Assembly (NCBI GenBank): GCA_038873195.1
Contig: JAVZEV010000001.1
Span: 958,490 to 1,022,489, forward strand
DNA from: Candidatus Bathyarchaeia archaeon
Lineage (GTDB): Archaea > Thermoproteota > Bathyarchaeia > Bathyarchaeales > Bathycorpusculaceae
DNA: 64,000 nt
Direction: 5' to 3'
Below are positions 48,507-54,627 of the stretch, one piece after another. The notes under the pieces were generated by a model, which was given only the letters and a program-made list of their open reading frames with translations, was not told where the DNA came from and made no database searches. The stretch's first letter is position 1, and every line of letters begins with the position of its first letter. A program made the translations under genes and the position numbers.

Positions 48507-50198
48507 TTAGCTGGAACTATATTCCATGAATGCCTTAGTGAACTTTTTCATTAAGTCAAAGGGATTTTCAACGACGCAACTATTTCGAATATATTGTTTG
48601 ACTGCGCGGCTGTTAACGCCTATTCCTATAATTCCTACGCCCATTCGCTCAATTTTCTTGATGTTCTCCTTCAGTTTCTCTTCAGCCTCCTCATAACCGG
48701 CGGGAAAGAAATCAGAGACAACGACTAAAACTCTGGCTTCTTCAAGTCGCTTTGTTAAAGCTTGGGCTGCAAGCAAGATAGCGTCAGGCAAGTATGTTAA
48801 ACCGCCATGAGATAAACCGCCAATTCTAGCTCTTACGCGGGTGTCGAATTTTTCAGAAAAATCCTTGATGACGTAAAATTTAGTGTTAAAGGCGTACATG
48901 CCCCAAGAGTTTTGATCAAGAATTAGTTGTTTGGCAACTTCAGCTAAGCATAAAGCTATGCCGCGTACTTCGCCTTTAAACATGCTGAGGCTGTGACTGG
49001 CATCGATGAGTATTGACCAAGCGTCTTCTCTTGTTTGAAGCTCCTCTCGAGAGAATATATCTGTTCGTTGGCTTTTGCTGGCGATTACTTGTATGGCTTC
49101 CTGCAAGTCAACGAAACCACTTTCTTGTCTAAAATCTTCGCCGCCAACGTTTTTCAAAAGCCTTAGCCTATATAATATGCGTCTAACGGGACCGCCTAAG
49201 ATTTCGCGTCTTCTTTGAAATTCAACATAGTCTTCAGTTGGAAACTCGAAATCTTCAAATTTTGTTTCTTTTCCTATATCAATATAGCCTTTTAAGATTT
49301 TTAGCTTGGAATTTTCTCGTTCTAACCAAGCGTTTAAAGCTTGGAGAGGCTCGCTTTCTCTTAAATTTTGCAGCATACTTCTACGTTGCTCTTCGTCTTT
49401 GGTTTCTGGAGAGAGTGCTATTAGGGCTTCTGGGAGAACTTGCTGAATTTCTTCTTCCGTTGGTATTTTTTGTTCATAGAAAAGGTCGTTTGTTCCGTGG
49501 CTTTCCATGTATAAAAGAGAGGGAATCTCGAAAACGTTTCCATAAGTGGTGAGAGCGTCATAGATTTTGGTTGCGGCGTCTATTCTGTCATCAATTGTTG
49601 GGTTTTCTTCTATTTTGCGGAGAATGGAAGTTATTGCTTCAACATCCGTACGTGCTCCGTTACTTAAGTTACCCTTAATTTTTCCCACGTTATAGCCTAA
49701 AAGCGCTGAAGTCATGACTCGTGACATGTCATTCGAAAGCTCTTCAGCTTTCTTAATTCGAAGAAAAGAAATAGTATTGGCATAGGCTATTTCTGGAAGA
49801 ACATGCTGAAATGACTGTTTCAAATAATTAGTTATTATAGCATCTTCAATCGCGCTGATGACAAACGTGGCCAAGTTAATTGATTTACCTCGTGACCATT
49901 TTAAATAAACTGAAAAATTCGACAGTAGAACATGCAAGCTTAAATGAAAAACTGATGCCTTGAACAAATACCAGATGATCTTCTTATGAGTTGGATTTTG
50001 AAGGTTAAATCTTAATCCTTGAAAATAGACATGGTTACCATTCAACCGTTTGGGAATGACCAAATGAAGAACGTATCCTCTACCGTCCTTTCCAAGATAA
50101 GGATACTTTAGATCATCATGAAAAAGAACTTTTAGTTCATTATACGTTTTCTTTGTTATTTGAAAAGCAGTTGACCATGCAAAATCAAAAAAGTTCAA
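48507..50198 (-). CDS. VWA-domain protein, CoxE/NorD-like
   Basis: A 563-residue protein with a C-terminal von Willebrand A domain. The metal-ion site is complete: D399-A-S401-H-S403, T468 in GGLTYLPDAI, and D496 in VVVSDFF. The N-terminal about 390 residues are helical and not recognised. VWA proteins of this kind pair with MoxR ATPases to insert cofactors or activate enzymes. Here the MoxR ATPase gene lies 16 bases upstream on the same strand, so they form one unit. No client enzyme gene is adjacent. Confidence 0.88.
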   Translation of the reverse strand: MNFFDFAWSTAFQITKKTYNELKVLFHDDLKYPYLGKDGRGYVLHLVIPKRLNGNHVYFQGLRFNLQNPTHKKIIWYLFKASVFHLSLHVLLSNFSVYLKWSRGKSINLATFVISAIEDAIITNYLKQSFQHVLPEIAYANTISFLRIKKAEELSNDMSRVMTSALLGYNVGKIKGNLSNGARTDVEAITSILRKIEENPTIDDRIDAATKIYDALTTYGNVFEIPSLLYMESHGTNDLFYEQKIPTEEEIQQVLPEALIALSPETKDEEQRRSMLQNLRESEPLQALNAWLERENSKLKILKGYIDIGKETKFEDFEFPTEDYVEFQRRREILGGPVRRILYRLRLLKNVGGEDFRQESGFVDLQEAIQVIASKSQRTDIFSREELQTREDAWSILIDASHSLSMFKGEVRGIALCLAEVAKQLILDQNSWGMYAFNTKFYVIKDFSEKFDTRVRARIGGLSHGGLTYLPDAILLAAQALTKRLEEARVLVVVSDFFPAGYEEAEEKLKENIKKIERMGVGIIGIGVNSRAVKQYIRNSCVVENPFDLMKKFTKAFMEYSSS

Positions 50199-50214
50199 GG
50201 TCTAAACCCATATT

Positions 50215-51303
50215 CTATTTTTCGAAAATAGACTCCACAATGCGTTTCACGACAGCTTGTATTTCCACATCATCACTTGTTGTTCCAACTATTGTTTCCA
50301 CAGCCGCTTCTATTGGCGGACAGCCATCCGCAACCAAGGTCGCCCAGTTGATTAGGTCTCCAGGTGATGGGCCGTAGGGTAAGTCTCCATTTTTATATTG
50401 CCTTCGAAGTTCAGCTCCTACGCGGACTATTTTTTCGGCTGTTTTTTCGTCTACTCCGCTTCTTTTCGCTATGAGTTCTACTTCGTCTGGAGCTACTTTG
50501 TCGCCTATGCTTAGGTAGTCAAAGTTTATCCAAACTGACATGCGCCGCCTGAGAGCAGCGTTTAATGGTTTGGTTCCAATGAATTCGGCTGAGAAGGGGT
50601 TCATGGAGATTACTAGGTAGCCGTATTGATGTCTTTTTATTATTTCGTTGTCTTTTTCTGTGAGGACGATGTGTCCTCTGGTGTCTAAGACTGGGTTCAG
50701 TCTTGTGGCTATGTCTTGTTTCATCATGTTAGCTTCGTCTAGATAGAGTATGCCGCCGTTTCTGCACCACATTACTATTTGTCCGTCGATCCAGTTTTCT
50801 TTTCCAAGTCCTATGTATCTTCCAAAAAGGTCGTAGGCAGACGTCTGTAAACCACAGTTTATCTCCCACATAGGAAGACCGCAGAGTTCCGCGACTAAGT
50901 AGACTATGTGTGTTTTTCCTGTTCCGCTGGGACCAATTAAGGCGCACTGTTTGAAGTGGTATAGGGCGCGTACTATTCTTTCAACGTAATTGAAGCCTTT
51001 GTCTATATATTCTGGGGTATTGCGCGGTATTAGTGTTTGTTGGGATTCGGGAAAAACATATCCAGGATGCAAGTCGTACTTGTCTATTCTGTATTTTTTC
51101 CGAAGTTCTGTATGTGATGGCGAGTCGAGGTTTGCTGCTTTTGTTATTGAAACTGATAGTTTTGTATCTTTTAGTTCTGTTCTTACCTGTTCCTCTACCA
51201 TGTAGACGGTTTCGCTTCTTTTCTTTTTTCCACCCTGGAATCCGAACCCGACTGCACTTGTTTCCATTTGTTTTTCTGAAATTTTTTGTTTGGTTTCTGG
51301 CAA
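50215..51303 (-). CDS. MoxR-family AAA+ ATPase (NorQ/CbbQ-like)
   Basis: A 362-residue AAA+ ATPase of the MoxR group. Walker A is G124-PSGTGK-T131, Walker B is GGILYLDEAN with D189 and E190, and sensor 1 lies in YLVISMNPFSAEF; the arginine finger region is ALRRRMSVW. An N-terminal extension of about 90 residues holds SPSHTELRKKYRIDKYDLHPGY. Members remodel or load metal into partner enzymes together with a VWA protein, which is encoded next. The TTG start is preceded by GAGGGAA. Confidence 0.93.
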   Translation of the reverse strand: MPETKQKISEKQMETSAVGFGFQGGKKKRSETVYMVEEQVRTELKDTKLSVSITKAANLDSPSHTELRKKYRIDKYDLHPGYVFPESQQTLIPRNTPEYIDKGFNYVERIVRALYHFKQCALIGPSGTGKTHIVYLVAELCGLPMWEINCGLQTSAYDLFGRYIGLGKENWIDGQIVMWCRNGGILYLDEANMMKQDIATRLNPVLDTRGHIVLTEKDNEIIKRHQYGYLVISMNPFSAEFIGTKPLNAALRRRMSVWINFDYLSIGDKVAPDEVELIAKRSGVDEKTAEKIVRVGAELRRQYKNGDLPYGPSPGDLINWATLVADGCPPIEAAVETIVGTTSDDVEIQAVVKRIVESIFEK

Positions 51304-51396: not shown

Positions 51397-51666
51397 TTAC
51401 AATAAAAGTTCAATCAAAATATTCCGCAATTCAGTTTTATCTTTAAGATTCCGAAAAATAGCTTTGCCCGTTCCATAAAGGCGAAATGAAACGTTCTTGA
51501 AAGTTAACTCAAAAATTATGGATGAAACGGACCTTTCAGTCTTAGCCTTTTTTAGAATCTTTGCGATTGCTTCTTCTTTTCTCTCGTATCTGAACAAGAC
51601 AATGAATTGTTTTTCTTCACCACATGTTTCTTCAATTCTAGCCACGTAATCCTCGACGGAAGCCAT
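51397..51666 (-). CDS. Small protein coupled to sufS
   Basis: An 89-residue protein of unknown function. It is alpha/beta, with one Cys at position 15 and an amphipathic middle (EEAIAKILKKAKTERSVSSIIFEL). The ATG shares the TAATG junction with the sufS stop, so the two are translationally coupled. It could be a sulfur-transfer partner, but it lacks the SufE or SufU signature. I cannot assign it. Confidence 0.6.
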   Translation of the reverse strand: MASVEDYVARIEETCGEEKQFIVLFRYERKEEAIAKILKKAKTERSVSSIIFELTFKNVSFRLYGTGKAIFRNLKDKTELRNILIELLL

Positions 51667-52901
51667 TAAACCAACTCAATTTCCTTCAAAACTTCTATGA
51701 AACGGTCAATTTCTTCGCGTGTGTTGTAAACGTAGAAGCTCACTCGTGCTGAGGAGCTTAACTTAAATATCTGATGTAACGGTTGGGCGCAGTGAAAACC
51801 GCTTCTCACCATGATTCCATAATTGTCAAGAAACAAAGCGACATCATGCGAGCTTAAACCGTCCACACCAAAAGGAATTATTCCACATTTAATAGATGTG
51901 TTCTTTGGACCATAAACCTCGGTTTTCTTGCATTCTTCTAAGCGTTTCATGGCATACTCTGTCATTGTACATTCATGTTCCTTAACATTCTCCATACCCA
52001 ACTTCTTCAGATATTTGATTGCTTCCATAAACCCAACACTACCACCAACATTCGGCGTTCCAGCCTCAAATTTCCATGGCAAATCATTCCAAGAAATCGA
52101 ACAACGCTTCGTAGCAGGATTGTATGAGACTTCACGTATCATTTCGCCTCCGCCATGAAAAGGTGCCATATCTTCAAGAAGTTCACGCTTACCATACAAA
52201 CAACCGATACCCGTGGGCCCCAGCATTTTATGTCCGGAAAAAGCGAGAAAATCAATGTCTAATTCTTTAACGTTAACTGGCAAATGCGGAACTGATTGTG
52301 CGCCGTCCACAAGTGTTAAGGCGCCATGTTCATGCGCAATTTTTGCAATTCGCTTTACATCATTTATAACTCCAGTGACGTTTGAAACGTGGCTGAAACA
52401 GACAATTTTAGTCTTGCCGGAAACCTTGCTTTCAAAATCTTCGTAGTTTAATGTGCCATCATTGTTGACTTCTGCGTATTTAATGTTGAAACCGTTTATT
52501 TTTGACAGAATCTCCCAAGGAACAATGTTACTGTGGTGTTCCATCAAAGACACAATTACCTCATCACCTTTTTTCAGATTACGGAGACCCCACGCATAAG
52601 CAACAAGGTTGATGGCTTCAGTTGTGCCTCTAACAAAAATTGTCTCTTCAATACCGTTTGCGTTAATGAATTTTGCAACTTCTTCATGTGCATCTTCGTA
52701 AAACTGAGAAGCCTCTTGAGAAAGGGTGTGAACGGCTCTGTGAACATTTGCATTGTGGTTTTCGTAGAAGTTTTTCATAGCGTCTATTACCTGCTTTGGC
52801 TTTTGTGAACTTGCCGCGTTATCGAAGTAGATTAGTGGGTGGTCGTTGATTTTCCGTTTTAATATTGGAAAATCCTCTCGAACCTTATAAGGGTCGAACA
52901 T
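51666..52901 (-). CDS. sufS: Cysteine desulfurase SufS-type
   Basis: A 411-residue group II cysteine desulfurase, releasing sulfur from cysteine as a persulfide for Fe-S assembly. The family residues are all present: YFDNAASSQKPKQVI, MEHHSNIVPW, LVDGAQSVPH, the PLP lysine in FSGHKMLGPTGIG, FEAGTPN, and the catalytic Cys in VRSGFHCAQPLH. It starts one base inside the stop codon of the IscU-like gene. Together with that scaffold it forms the core of the Fe-S operon. Confidence 0.94.
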   Translation of the reverse strand: MFDPYKVREDFPILKRKINDHPLIYFDNAASSQKPKQVIDAMKNFYENHNANVHRAVHTLSQEASQFYEDAHEEVAKFINANGIEETIFVRGTTEAINLVAYAWGLRNLKKGDEVIVSLMEHHSNIVPWEILSKINGFNIKYAEVNNDGTLNYEDFESKVSGKTKIVCFSHVSNVTGVINDVKRIAKIAHEHGALTLVDGAQSVPHLPVNVKELDIDFLAFSGHKMLGPTGIGCLYGKRELLEDMAPFHGGGEMIREVSYNPATKRCSISWNDLPWKFEAGTPNVGGSVGFMEAIKYLKKLGMENVKEHECTMTEYAMKRLEECKKTEVYGPKNTSIKCGIIPFGVDGLSSHDVALFLDNYGIMVRSGFHCAQPLHQIFKLSSSARVSFYVYNTREEIDRFIEVLKEIELV

Positions 52902-53401
52902 TACTTTTCTTCCTCAAGCTTAATCCGTTTAGCGAGAACCTTCGCCAACTCCTCTTCTTCCAACGCTTGCTTCTCTTCAAAACTTAATTCTTCCTGTATC
53001 CAGCTGGGCGAAACACCTTTGTTCTTGTAATATTTCCTGATGGCTCGCTTCAAAGCTCCAACAGCTAAAATGCCACAGTGAAACTTTACACTCGGCAGTC
53101 CACCAACTTCTTCTGCAACCGACTTCCAAGATATTTTCCATGCTTCCTCAAGTTTCATATTCTTAATCATTTCGGTGACTATGCTTGACGTGGCAATGTT
53201 AGCTGCACAGCCGTAACTTTCAAAAGACGCTCTTTCGATGATATCTTGGTCGTTAATTTTAAGGTAGAAAGTTATCATGTCTCCGCAAGAGGGGTTGCCT
53301 GCAACTGCGGTTACCGTAGCGTCTTCCATTTTGCCCAAATTTTTAGGGTTTTTGAATAGTTCAAGCACCTTGGGATTGTAAGGTAAAGGTATCCGCGACA
53401 T
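52901..53401 (-). CDS. Fe-S scaffold, IscU/SufU-like
   Basis: A 166-residue scaffold on which Fe-S clusters are built. The three conserved cysteines are present: C39 in PSCGDM with its following Asp, C65 in YGCAANIAT, and C109 in FHCGILAVGAL. The C-terminal 45 residues add a charged helix beyond the usual length. The gene is 2 bases after the NifS-like stop and overlaps the sufS start by one base. It lacks the SufU zinc-site insert, so IscU is the nearer type. Confidence 0.9.
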   Translation of the reverse strand: MSRIPLPYNPKVLELFKNPKNLGKMEDATVTAVAGNPSCGDMITFYLKINDQDIIERASFESYGCAANIATSSIVTEMIKNMKLEEAWKISWKSVAEEVGGLPSVKFHCGILAVGALKRAIRKYYKNKGVSPSWIQEELSFEEKQALEEEELAKVLAKRIKLEEEK

Positions 53402-53403
53402 GC

Positions 53404-54627
53404 TTATTCCACTCCTGTAGCGCCTGTAATTCCCCGTATTCTTTCAACAGCCTTAGGAAGAACTTCCAAAACATAATTTATGTCCTCTTCAGTATGATAC
53501 CTCGTGACCTTCATAAGTATGCTGCCGTGGGCTTCGTCGAATTTTCTGCCGATAGCAACAAGAACATGACTAGGTTGAAGCAAACGCCTTGTACAAGCGC
53601 TCCCGCTTGAAACATAAATGCCATTCAAACTAAGCTCAATGGTTAATGCTTCACCTTCACATCGCAAAAAGCTAATGTTCACGTTGTCTGAAACTCTCTT
53701 GTCACCTTTTGGCCCATTAAGCTTGACGTCAGAAATCTTCCCTACTATTCCGTTGATCAATTTGTCTCTAAGGCTACGCATATGAGCTGTGTTCTTTTCA
53801 AAATTTTCAAAGGCCAACTCAGATGCCTTCGAGAACCCAACAATTAAAGGCGTGTTTTCAACGCCTGGCCAGAGTTTCTGCGTTCCAATTTGACCCTCAA
53901 GAATTTTTTCCACGCTAACGCCTTCTTTTACATAGAGGACGCCTATGCCTCGGGGTCCCAAGATTTTATAGCTGCTTATGGTTGCTAAGTCTACGCCATA
54001 TTGTTGTACGTTAAACGGAGCTTTGCCATAAGCATCTGAAGCGTCTGTGTGGAAAAGTGCTTCTGGATTTTTGTCCTTAACTATTTCCAGAGCTTCTTTG
54101 ATGGGCTGTATTGTTCCAATCTCGTGATTTACAGCGGATAAACTCACAAGAACAGTTTCTTTGTCAACAGTTTCTTTCAGTTTTTCAAGGTTTATGACGC
54201 CTTCACTGCCCACTGGAACCTTTTTTGTGGTAAACCCGTATTTCTGCAGCATTTCGGTAACGTGTAAAACGCTTATTGGCTCAATTTCCGAAATTACAAG
54301 TTTCTTGCCCTTGTTTCTCATCGAAGACAGCGTTCCCATTAAAGCTAAATTGTTGGCTTCCGTTTCACCTGGTGTAAAGTTAACTTCTTCAAGCATTTTG
54401 CATCCCAAAAAATTGGCAATTTTCTGTGTGGATTCCATTATTGTTTCGAAGGCTTCCCAACCGGGCTTATGCGTTAGTGTTGGGTTGCCATATGCCCGTT
54501 GATTGTAGTATGGCAGCATTGCGTCAATTACTTCTTGCGGAACCACGCTTGAGTTTTCAATGTCCAAATAAACTTCGCGTTTTATCCCTTCATGCGCACG
54601 AAGCAGTTCTTTCACATTTTCAACCAT
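53404..54627 (-). CDS. Divergent NifS/IscS-like PLP protein
   Basis: A 407-residue class V aminotransferase-fold protein, homologous to cysteine desulfurases. The PLP lysine is K221 in SSYKILGPRG and the mobile-loop cysteine is C345 in SSGSACT. But several PLP-pocket residues differ from IscS: the stacking His in TEHKAVL is Pro117 (IEPISVL), the Gln of DATQ is Asp198, the His before the Lys is Tyr220, and the RSGT arginine region is WPGV (253-256). So it may desulfurate cysteine differently or have a new substrate. It is the first gene of the operon with the scaffold and sufS. Confidence 0.82.
   Translation of the reverse strand: MVENVKELLRAHEGIKREVYLDIENSSVVPQEVIDAMLPYYNQRAYGNPTLTHKPGWEAFETIMESTQKIANFLGCKMLEEVNFTPGETEANNLALMGTLSSMRNKGKKLVISEIEPISVLHVTEMLQKYGFTTKKVPVGSEGVINLEKLKETVDKETVLVSLSAVNHEIGTIQPIKEALEIVKDKNPEALFHTDASDAYGKAPFNVQQYGVDLATISSYKILGPRGIGVLYVKEGVSVEKILEGQIGTQKLWPGVENTPLIVGFSKASELAFENFEKNTAHMRSLRDKLINGIVGKISDVKLNGPKGDKRVSDNVNISFLRCEGEALTIELSLNGIYVSSGSACTRRLLQPSHVLVAIGRKFDEAHGSILMKVTRYHTEEDINYVLEVLPKAVERIRGITGATGVE

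Follow-up and report, generated by a model that had tools for sequence, protein, structure and literature searches.

We analyzed a 64,000-nt stretch of the genome of Candidatus Bathyarchaeia archaeon (JAVZEV010000001.1, positions 958,490-1,022,489; hereafter the window), whose assembly is 1.63 Mb long and 98% complete. Four genes follow one another on its minus strand in the order iscS*-iscU*-sufS-p89. The leading gene, iscS* (53404..54627), is read from 54627 to 53404, which corrects the strand given in the first-pass annotation; alignment and an AF2 model show that it encodes an IscS/NifS-like protein of 407 aa with a rebuilt pocket and an N-terminal extension of ~17 aa. It is followed by iscU* (52901..53401, minus strand), encoding an IscU-type scaffold of 166 aa (P0002) with intact ligands and an operon-test link to iscS*; sufS (51666..52901, minus strand), encoding a type II cysteine desulfurase (P0003); and p89 (51397..51666, minus strand), encoding a conserved 89-aa partner. 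Only 2 bases separate iscS* from iscU*, and the starts of sufS and p89 overlap the stops of iscU* and sufS, respectively, by 1 base each, so the four genes look like a single operon. A promoter and terminator scan of the locus returned signals at or below those of shuffles. By inspection, the operon SufS carries all of its canonical motifs (EHHS, DGAQ, SGHK, RSGFHCAQP and SSSARVSF), and it clears the NCBIfam SufS cut-off (575.7 versus 475.1); the first-pass view that iscS* leads an Fe-S operon containing an intact SufS is thus borne out by gene order and by the SufS motifs and score. After the operon, on the same strand, lie genes for a MoxR-type ATPase and a VWA-domain-like protein (48507-51303), and a MoxR-like gene is also found downstream in several Bathyarchaeia loci.

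The residues of IscS* were mapped by alignment with E. coli IscS and ~100 relatives, and by a second alignment that included A. fulgidus IscS and one further desulfurase of known structure. The PLP lysine (K221, E. coli K206) and the persulfide cysteine on the SSGSAC loop (C345, E. coli C328) are both kept, as had been read from the sequence at first pass. The three substitutions proposed there also hold: P117 stands at E. coli H104, the histidine stacked on PLP; D198 at Q183, the glutamine at PLP O3'; and Y220 at H205, the histidine preceding the catalytic lysine. The WPGV segment had been taken for the substrate-carboxylate arginine region and has to be reassigned, as it aligns with R240-S241-G242-T243, while the arginine that binds the substrate alpha-carboxylate, R354, corresponds to L371; this arginine is therefore also lost. 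A conserved lysine, K373, lies two residues from L371 and might serve as carboxylate binder in its place. The remaining PLP residues are D195 (D180), T89 (T76) and S218 (S203). Misalignment as the source of the odd residues was rejected since the two alignments agree, and against solved structures the residues fall at the claimed positions, WPGV excepted. The AF2 model (pLDDT 92) has the family fold, with top PDB matches that are all IscS, NFS1 or NifS. IscS* nevertheless scores under every NCBIfam desulfurase cut-off, the best being FeS_nifS (369.3 versus 530.75; IscS, 301.6 versus 643.2). E. coli IscS mutants at His104, Asp180, Gln183, Lys206 and Cys328 are inactive, with H104Q and Q183E named, and R354 is described as the substrate alpha-carboxylate binder, R354K being active (PMC9978102). 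Together, the pocket changes and these mutant data suggest that IscS* is unlikely to carry out ordinary cysteine desulfuration.

A search for a clade sharing these residues and an iscU neighbor, often together with sufS, found one across Thermoproteota. Among genomes at least 85% complete, with presence judged by match strength and identity, the IscS* clade occurs in 88 of the 163 genomes of the host class and in 48 of 304 sampled elsewhere in the phylum; the 51 IscS* rows of a 73-row tree fall together in a single group (support 100). Conservation was counted over 68 representatives under 85% identity: K221, C345, N25, W253 and P254 are invariant (68/68), E24 and L371 are each found in 67 (the remaining protein has Met at position 371), K373 in 66 (Arg in the other two) and D198 in 65. 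Pro117 is present in all 35 Bathyarchaeia-side representatives, whereas 32 of the 33 deep ones keep His, and Tyr220 is divided between the two sides in much the same way, though less strictly; both histidines are retained in deep members. On the tree, Pro117 marks a single 18-row clade that includes the window's copy, and the T243 position is Val or Ile in the window's clade. Since Pro117 is limited to these 18 rows while Gln-to-Asp, Arg-to-Leu and WPG are clade-wide, the His-to-Pro change arose once, on the Bathyarchaeia side, and the other changes are older; a simultaneous origin of all odd residues was rejected on this distribution. Chance or sequencing error was also rejected, given that the odd residues are fixed across ~100 sequences. 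The dN/dS of iscS* is ~0.07 against a same-genus relative, and at 43 of 49 loci IscS* resembles its counterpart in the window more closely than SufS does, which excludes a decaying pseudogene and, with the fixed residues, shows a pocket rebuilt under strong purifying selection. Two further loci (L139, L140) encode SufS and IscU in the same operon as an IscS of an intermediate lineage, which the tree places as sister to IscS*; this lineage retains Lys and Arg, while Asn occupies the stacking-His position, Ala the Gln position, and the loop reads LKPG. An IscS* with 73% identity to that of the window is encoded on a contig labeled Thermoplasmatota (L062), a record that is probably mislabeled or misbinned.

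The invariant Lys221 and the nearly invariant Asp195, Thr89 and Ser218 suggest that PLP is still bound and that some PLP chemistry is under selection. In single members the PLP aspartate is replaced, by Pro in L011 (HTPASDAY) and by Glu in L060; unless these are errors, some IscS* proteins may be able to do without PLP. A PLP enzyme whose pocket has been retuned to a different sulfur substrate, such as cysteine persulfide or another thiol amino acid, would account for the four kept residues, and the new, near-invariant E24, N25, D198, K373 and W253-P254 resemble a new specificity rather than decay. We find this reading rather unlikely: the survey of recurrent neighbors returned no recurring metabolic gene for such a substrate, the window's clade has Pro for the stacking His and Val or Ile at T243, and the PLP aspartate is Pro or Glu in the two members above.

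The gene iscU* adjoins iscS* in 68 of 70 loci (operon test). Its product has the cluster ligands C39, D41, C65, H108 and C109, plus K106, in 101 of 101 sequences. The LPxVK-HC segment is present, the second Pro of LPPVK being Ser in most sequences, and IscU* has signatures of its own, namely two tryptophans specific to its clade (Trp88, Trp92) and a conserved extension at the C-terminus. A SufU-type role was rejected, as the best scores are to IscU/NifU and the protein carries LPxVK-HC. A search for SufB/SufD gave 0 candidates in the host genome, while the identical search was positive in 14 of 14 control genomes, and SufB/SufD is missing from 58 of the 88 IscS* genomes of the class. The lack of SufB/SufD in the host and the pairing with IscU* indicate that IscS*-IscU* is probably its main scaffold system. 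The first-pass view of a remodeled PLP pocket is supported, and IscS* represents a lineage of its own within archaeal IscS; the first-pass term "paralogue" understates the role of the protein in the host, where IscS* is the sole type I desulfurase homologue found and SufB/SufD is missing. The host genome has a second, divergent IscU-like gene at another site (L167:3016-3441; C1 ~918515-918940), next to genes for a hydrogenase large subunit, two NifX-like proteins and two Mrp-type ATPases.

Genes for other sulfur-handling proteins recur near iscS*. SufS is nearby in 32 of 36 Bathyarchaeia-side loci, usually with p89; the deep loci have DsrE-TusA or the TusA-like p99, and TusA, DsrE or a TusA-like protein is nearby in 27 of 34. 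At the genome level, SufS is found in 81 of 88 IscS* carriers of the class versus 36 of 75 class genomes without IscS*, and outside the class in 48 of 48 carriers versus 231 of 304 background genomes. Seven IscS* genomes have no SufS: in six of them (G050, G056, G076, G077, G136 and G169) DsrE-TusA lies directly upstream of iscS*, whereas the seventh (G141) has a truncated iscS* and no observed carrier. For the Lys-less A. fulgidus-type IscS, TusA/DsrE is nearby in 11 of 13 loci versus 0 of 7 Lys-intact loci. Fisher values for the gene-linkage counts (4.6e-4; 6e-7) overstate the evidence because the counts share ancestry and are uncorrected for it. Operons of the form DsrE-TusA-iscS*-iscU* are seen in deep Thermoproteota (L133:2567-2788, L128:7504-7989, and similar in L121-L130, L135, L162-L164 and L166), and TusA-DsrE stands upstream of Lys-less IscS-IscU in L145, L147, L153, L156 and L158; no description of the DsrE-TusA-iscSU arrangement turned up in the literature searched, which was partial in coverage. 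E. coli IscS gives its sulfur to TusA, so linkage to TusA is by itself directionless.

The same surveys bear on whether IscS* could be an ordinary cysteine desulfurase that tolerates its substitutions, a reading we consider improbable. SufS is nearly always co-present; R354 and Q183 are lost, along with H104 and H205 in the window's clade, and a single change at H104 or Q183 inactivates E. coli IscS (PMC9978102). Such an enzyme would fit the invariant catalytic Lys and Cys on an intact fold, the two histidines of deep members, and the seven SufS-less genomes, in most of which no desulfurase homologue besides IscS* was found, G076 alone having a second IscS-type match.

Two small proteins accompany these genes. 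Cys15 of p89 is invariant (27/27 relatives), and the usual place of the gene is the end of the iscS*-iscU*(-sufS) operon. Its AF2 fold is confident with a weak fold match, and its profile matches one TATA-binding protein repeat (2z8u, E=6e-8), to which the similarity is weak; Pfam and NCBIfam searches gave no family, and kinship with TusA was rejected (hhalign probability 0.2). A role for p89 as a sulfur or metal partner is possible. The p99 protein of the deep loci is TusA-like (hhalign probability 95.9 over 75 columns; PDB 3hz7, E=8e-4), and the Cys after its first strand is conserved in 15 of 15 sequences. Fifteen loci (L111:4541-4813 and 14 similar) encode a TusA-like small protein adjoining iscU*, with GCTxHP instead of CPxP and no Pfam family at cut-off.

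We tentatively favor, at close to even confidence, a relay in which IscS* is no ordinary cysteine desulfurase and takes sulfur on Cys345 for IscU*. Within the archaeon's main Fe-S assembly machine, IscS* would serve IscU* as its dedicated partner. Sulfur would be mobilized by another protein, SufS acting on cysteine in the host and DsrE/TusA-type carriers in relatives, and loaded as a persulfide onto the mobile-loop Cys345 of IscS*, from which it would be delivered to IscU*; alternatively, Cys345 may help ligate the nascent cluster on IscU*. The model draws on changes equivalent to H104P, Q183D, H205Y and R354L at catalytic or substrate positions, set beside the inactive E. coli mutants (PMC9978102); on the universal retention of Cys345 and of the IscU* ligands; on the low dN/dS and the conservation of IscS* above SufS; on a separate sulfur-delivery gene near iscS* and SufS or DsrE-TusA in IscS* genomes; and on TusA/DsrE beside the Lys-less A. 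fulgidus type, reported as inactive, together with the A. fulgidus IscS-IscU complex as nearest fold. Counting against it are the invariant Lys221, the nearly invariant Asp195, Thr89 and Ser218, the presence of Lys373 given that R354K is active in E. coli (PMC9978102), both histidines in deep members, and the status of IscS* as the only desulfurase homologue in most SufS-less genomes. The first-pass annotation had left a choice between another substrate, a sulfur carrier and a regulatory partner; gene context favors a sulfur-accepting partner of IscU*, and other PLP chemistry is still compatible. A wider version of the relay, which we hold more loosely, is a phylum-wide, reverse-working module, in which IscS*, with its PLP Lys retained but its cysteine-handling residues gone, would take persulfide from an exchangeable donor (SufS, DsrE-TusA or p99) and pass it to IscU*; the Lys-less A. 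fulgidus type would have come to a similar arrangement independently. Desulfuration and scaffold partnering would then have been uncoupled at least twice.

In bacteria and mitochondria, the partner of IscU performs both the extraction of sulfur from cysteine and its delivery; in the IscS* system the two appear to be split between proteins. Should this hold, Fe-S clusters in many uncultured archaea, among them genomes without SufB/SufD such as that of the host, would be built from sulfur delivered by interchangeable carriers, the recurrence of broken active sites among archaeal IscS proteins would have a general reason, and automatic "cysteine desulfurase" labels would misstate the sulfur metabolism of such genomes.

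In both fold and sequence, the nearest solved relative of IscS* is A. fulgidus IscS (4eb5, 4hvk, 4r5f; 37-38% identity, TM-score 0.88/0.94), and the best fold match, 4eb5, is the A. fulgidus IscS-IscU complex. The two proteins share IscU pairing, loss of the substrate Arg and a changed Gln position; the Lys-less type and IscS* have in common an adjoining IscU with all cluster ligands and a kept loop Cys, and TusA/DsrE flanks both the A. fulgidus-type relatives and many IscS* loci. By contrast, the A. fulgidus type has exchanged Lys for Asp and kept the stacking His. In IscS* it is Lys that is kept, Gln has become Asp and RSG has become WPG, ENS occurs close to the N-terminus, and members on the Bathyarchaeia side also carry Pro at the stacking-His position. 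In the tree, 13 Lys-less rows (Asp or Glu for Lys) group with A. fulgidus in a clade separate from IscS* (SH-aLRT 99), in agreement with the first-pass remark that the pattern differs from the Lys loss of A. fulgidus. A. fulgidus IscS is reported to be without desulfurase activity and to provide a Cys ligand to a [2Fe-2S] cluster on IscU (PMC7585200), and sulfide can feed IscU in anaerobic iscS-null E. coli (PMC13015791). Given these reports and the nearest fold, free sulfide could supply the sulfur and Cys345 could be a cluster ligand on IscU*, with no sulfur-transfer role for IscS*. We judge this unlikely, as the recurring linkage to SufS, TusA, DsrE and TusA-like genes points to protein-borne sulfur and Lys is kept in 68 of 68 IscS* representatives, unlike in A. 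fulgidus IscS.

Odd IscS pockets are known in archaea from A. fulgidus and M. acetivorans IscS1, while M. acetivorans IscS2, member of an archaeal IscSU pair, is an active desulfurase (PMC7585200). Compared with canonical IscS/NifS (E. coli IscS, 1p3w; T. maritima NifS-like, 1ecx), IscS* has the same fold, Lys, loop Cys and PLP Asp/Thr/Ser, but four changed active-site positions and scores below all NCBIfam cut-offs. Gene orders and recurrent neighbors show iscS*-iscU* to be a two-gene unit without HscAB, Fdx or IscA. It shares the form of a bare IscS/IscU-type pair with MIS (MisS-MisU), a minimal archaeal system, as far as the summary of PMC12442378 describes it. Set against these systems, with MIS represented by that summary, IscS* looks like a new variant: a phylum-wide clade that retains Lys without the cysteine-handling residues and comes with an IscU of its own and with sulfur donors that are interchangeable.
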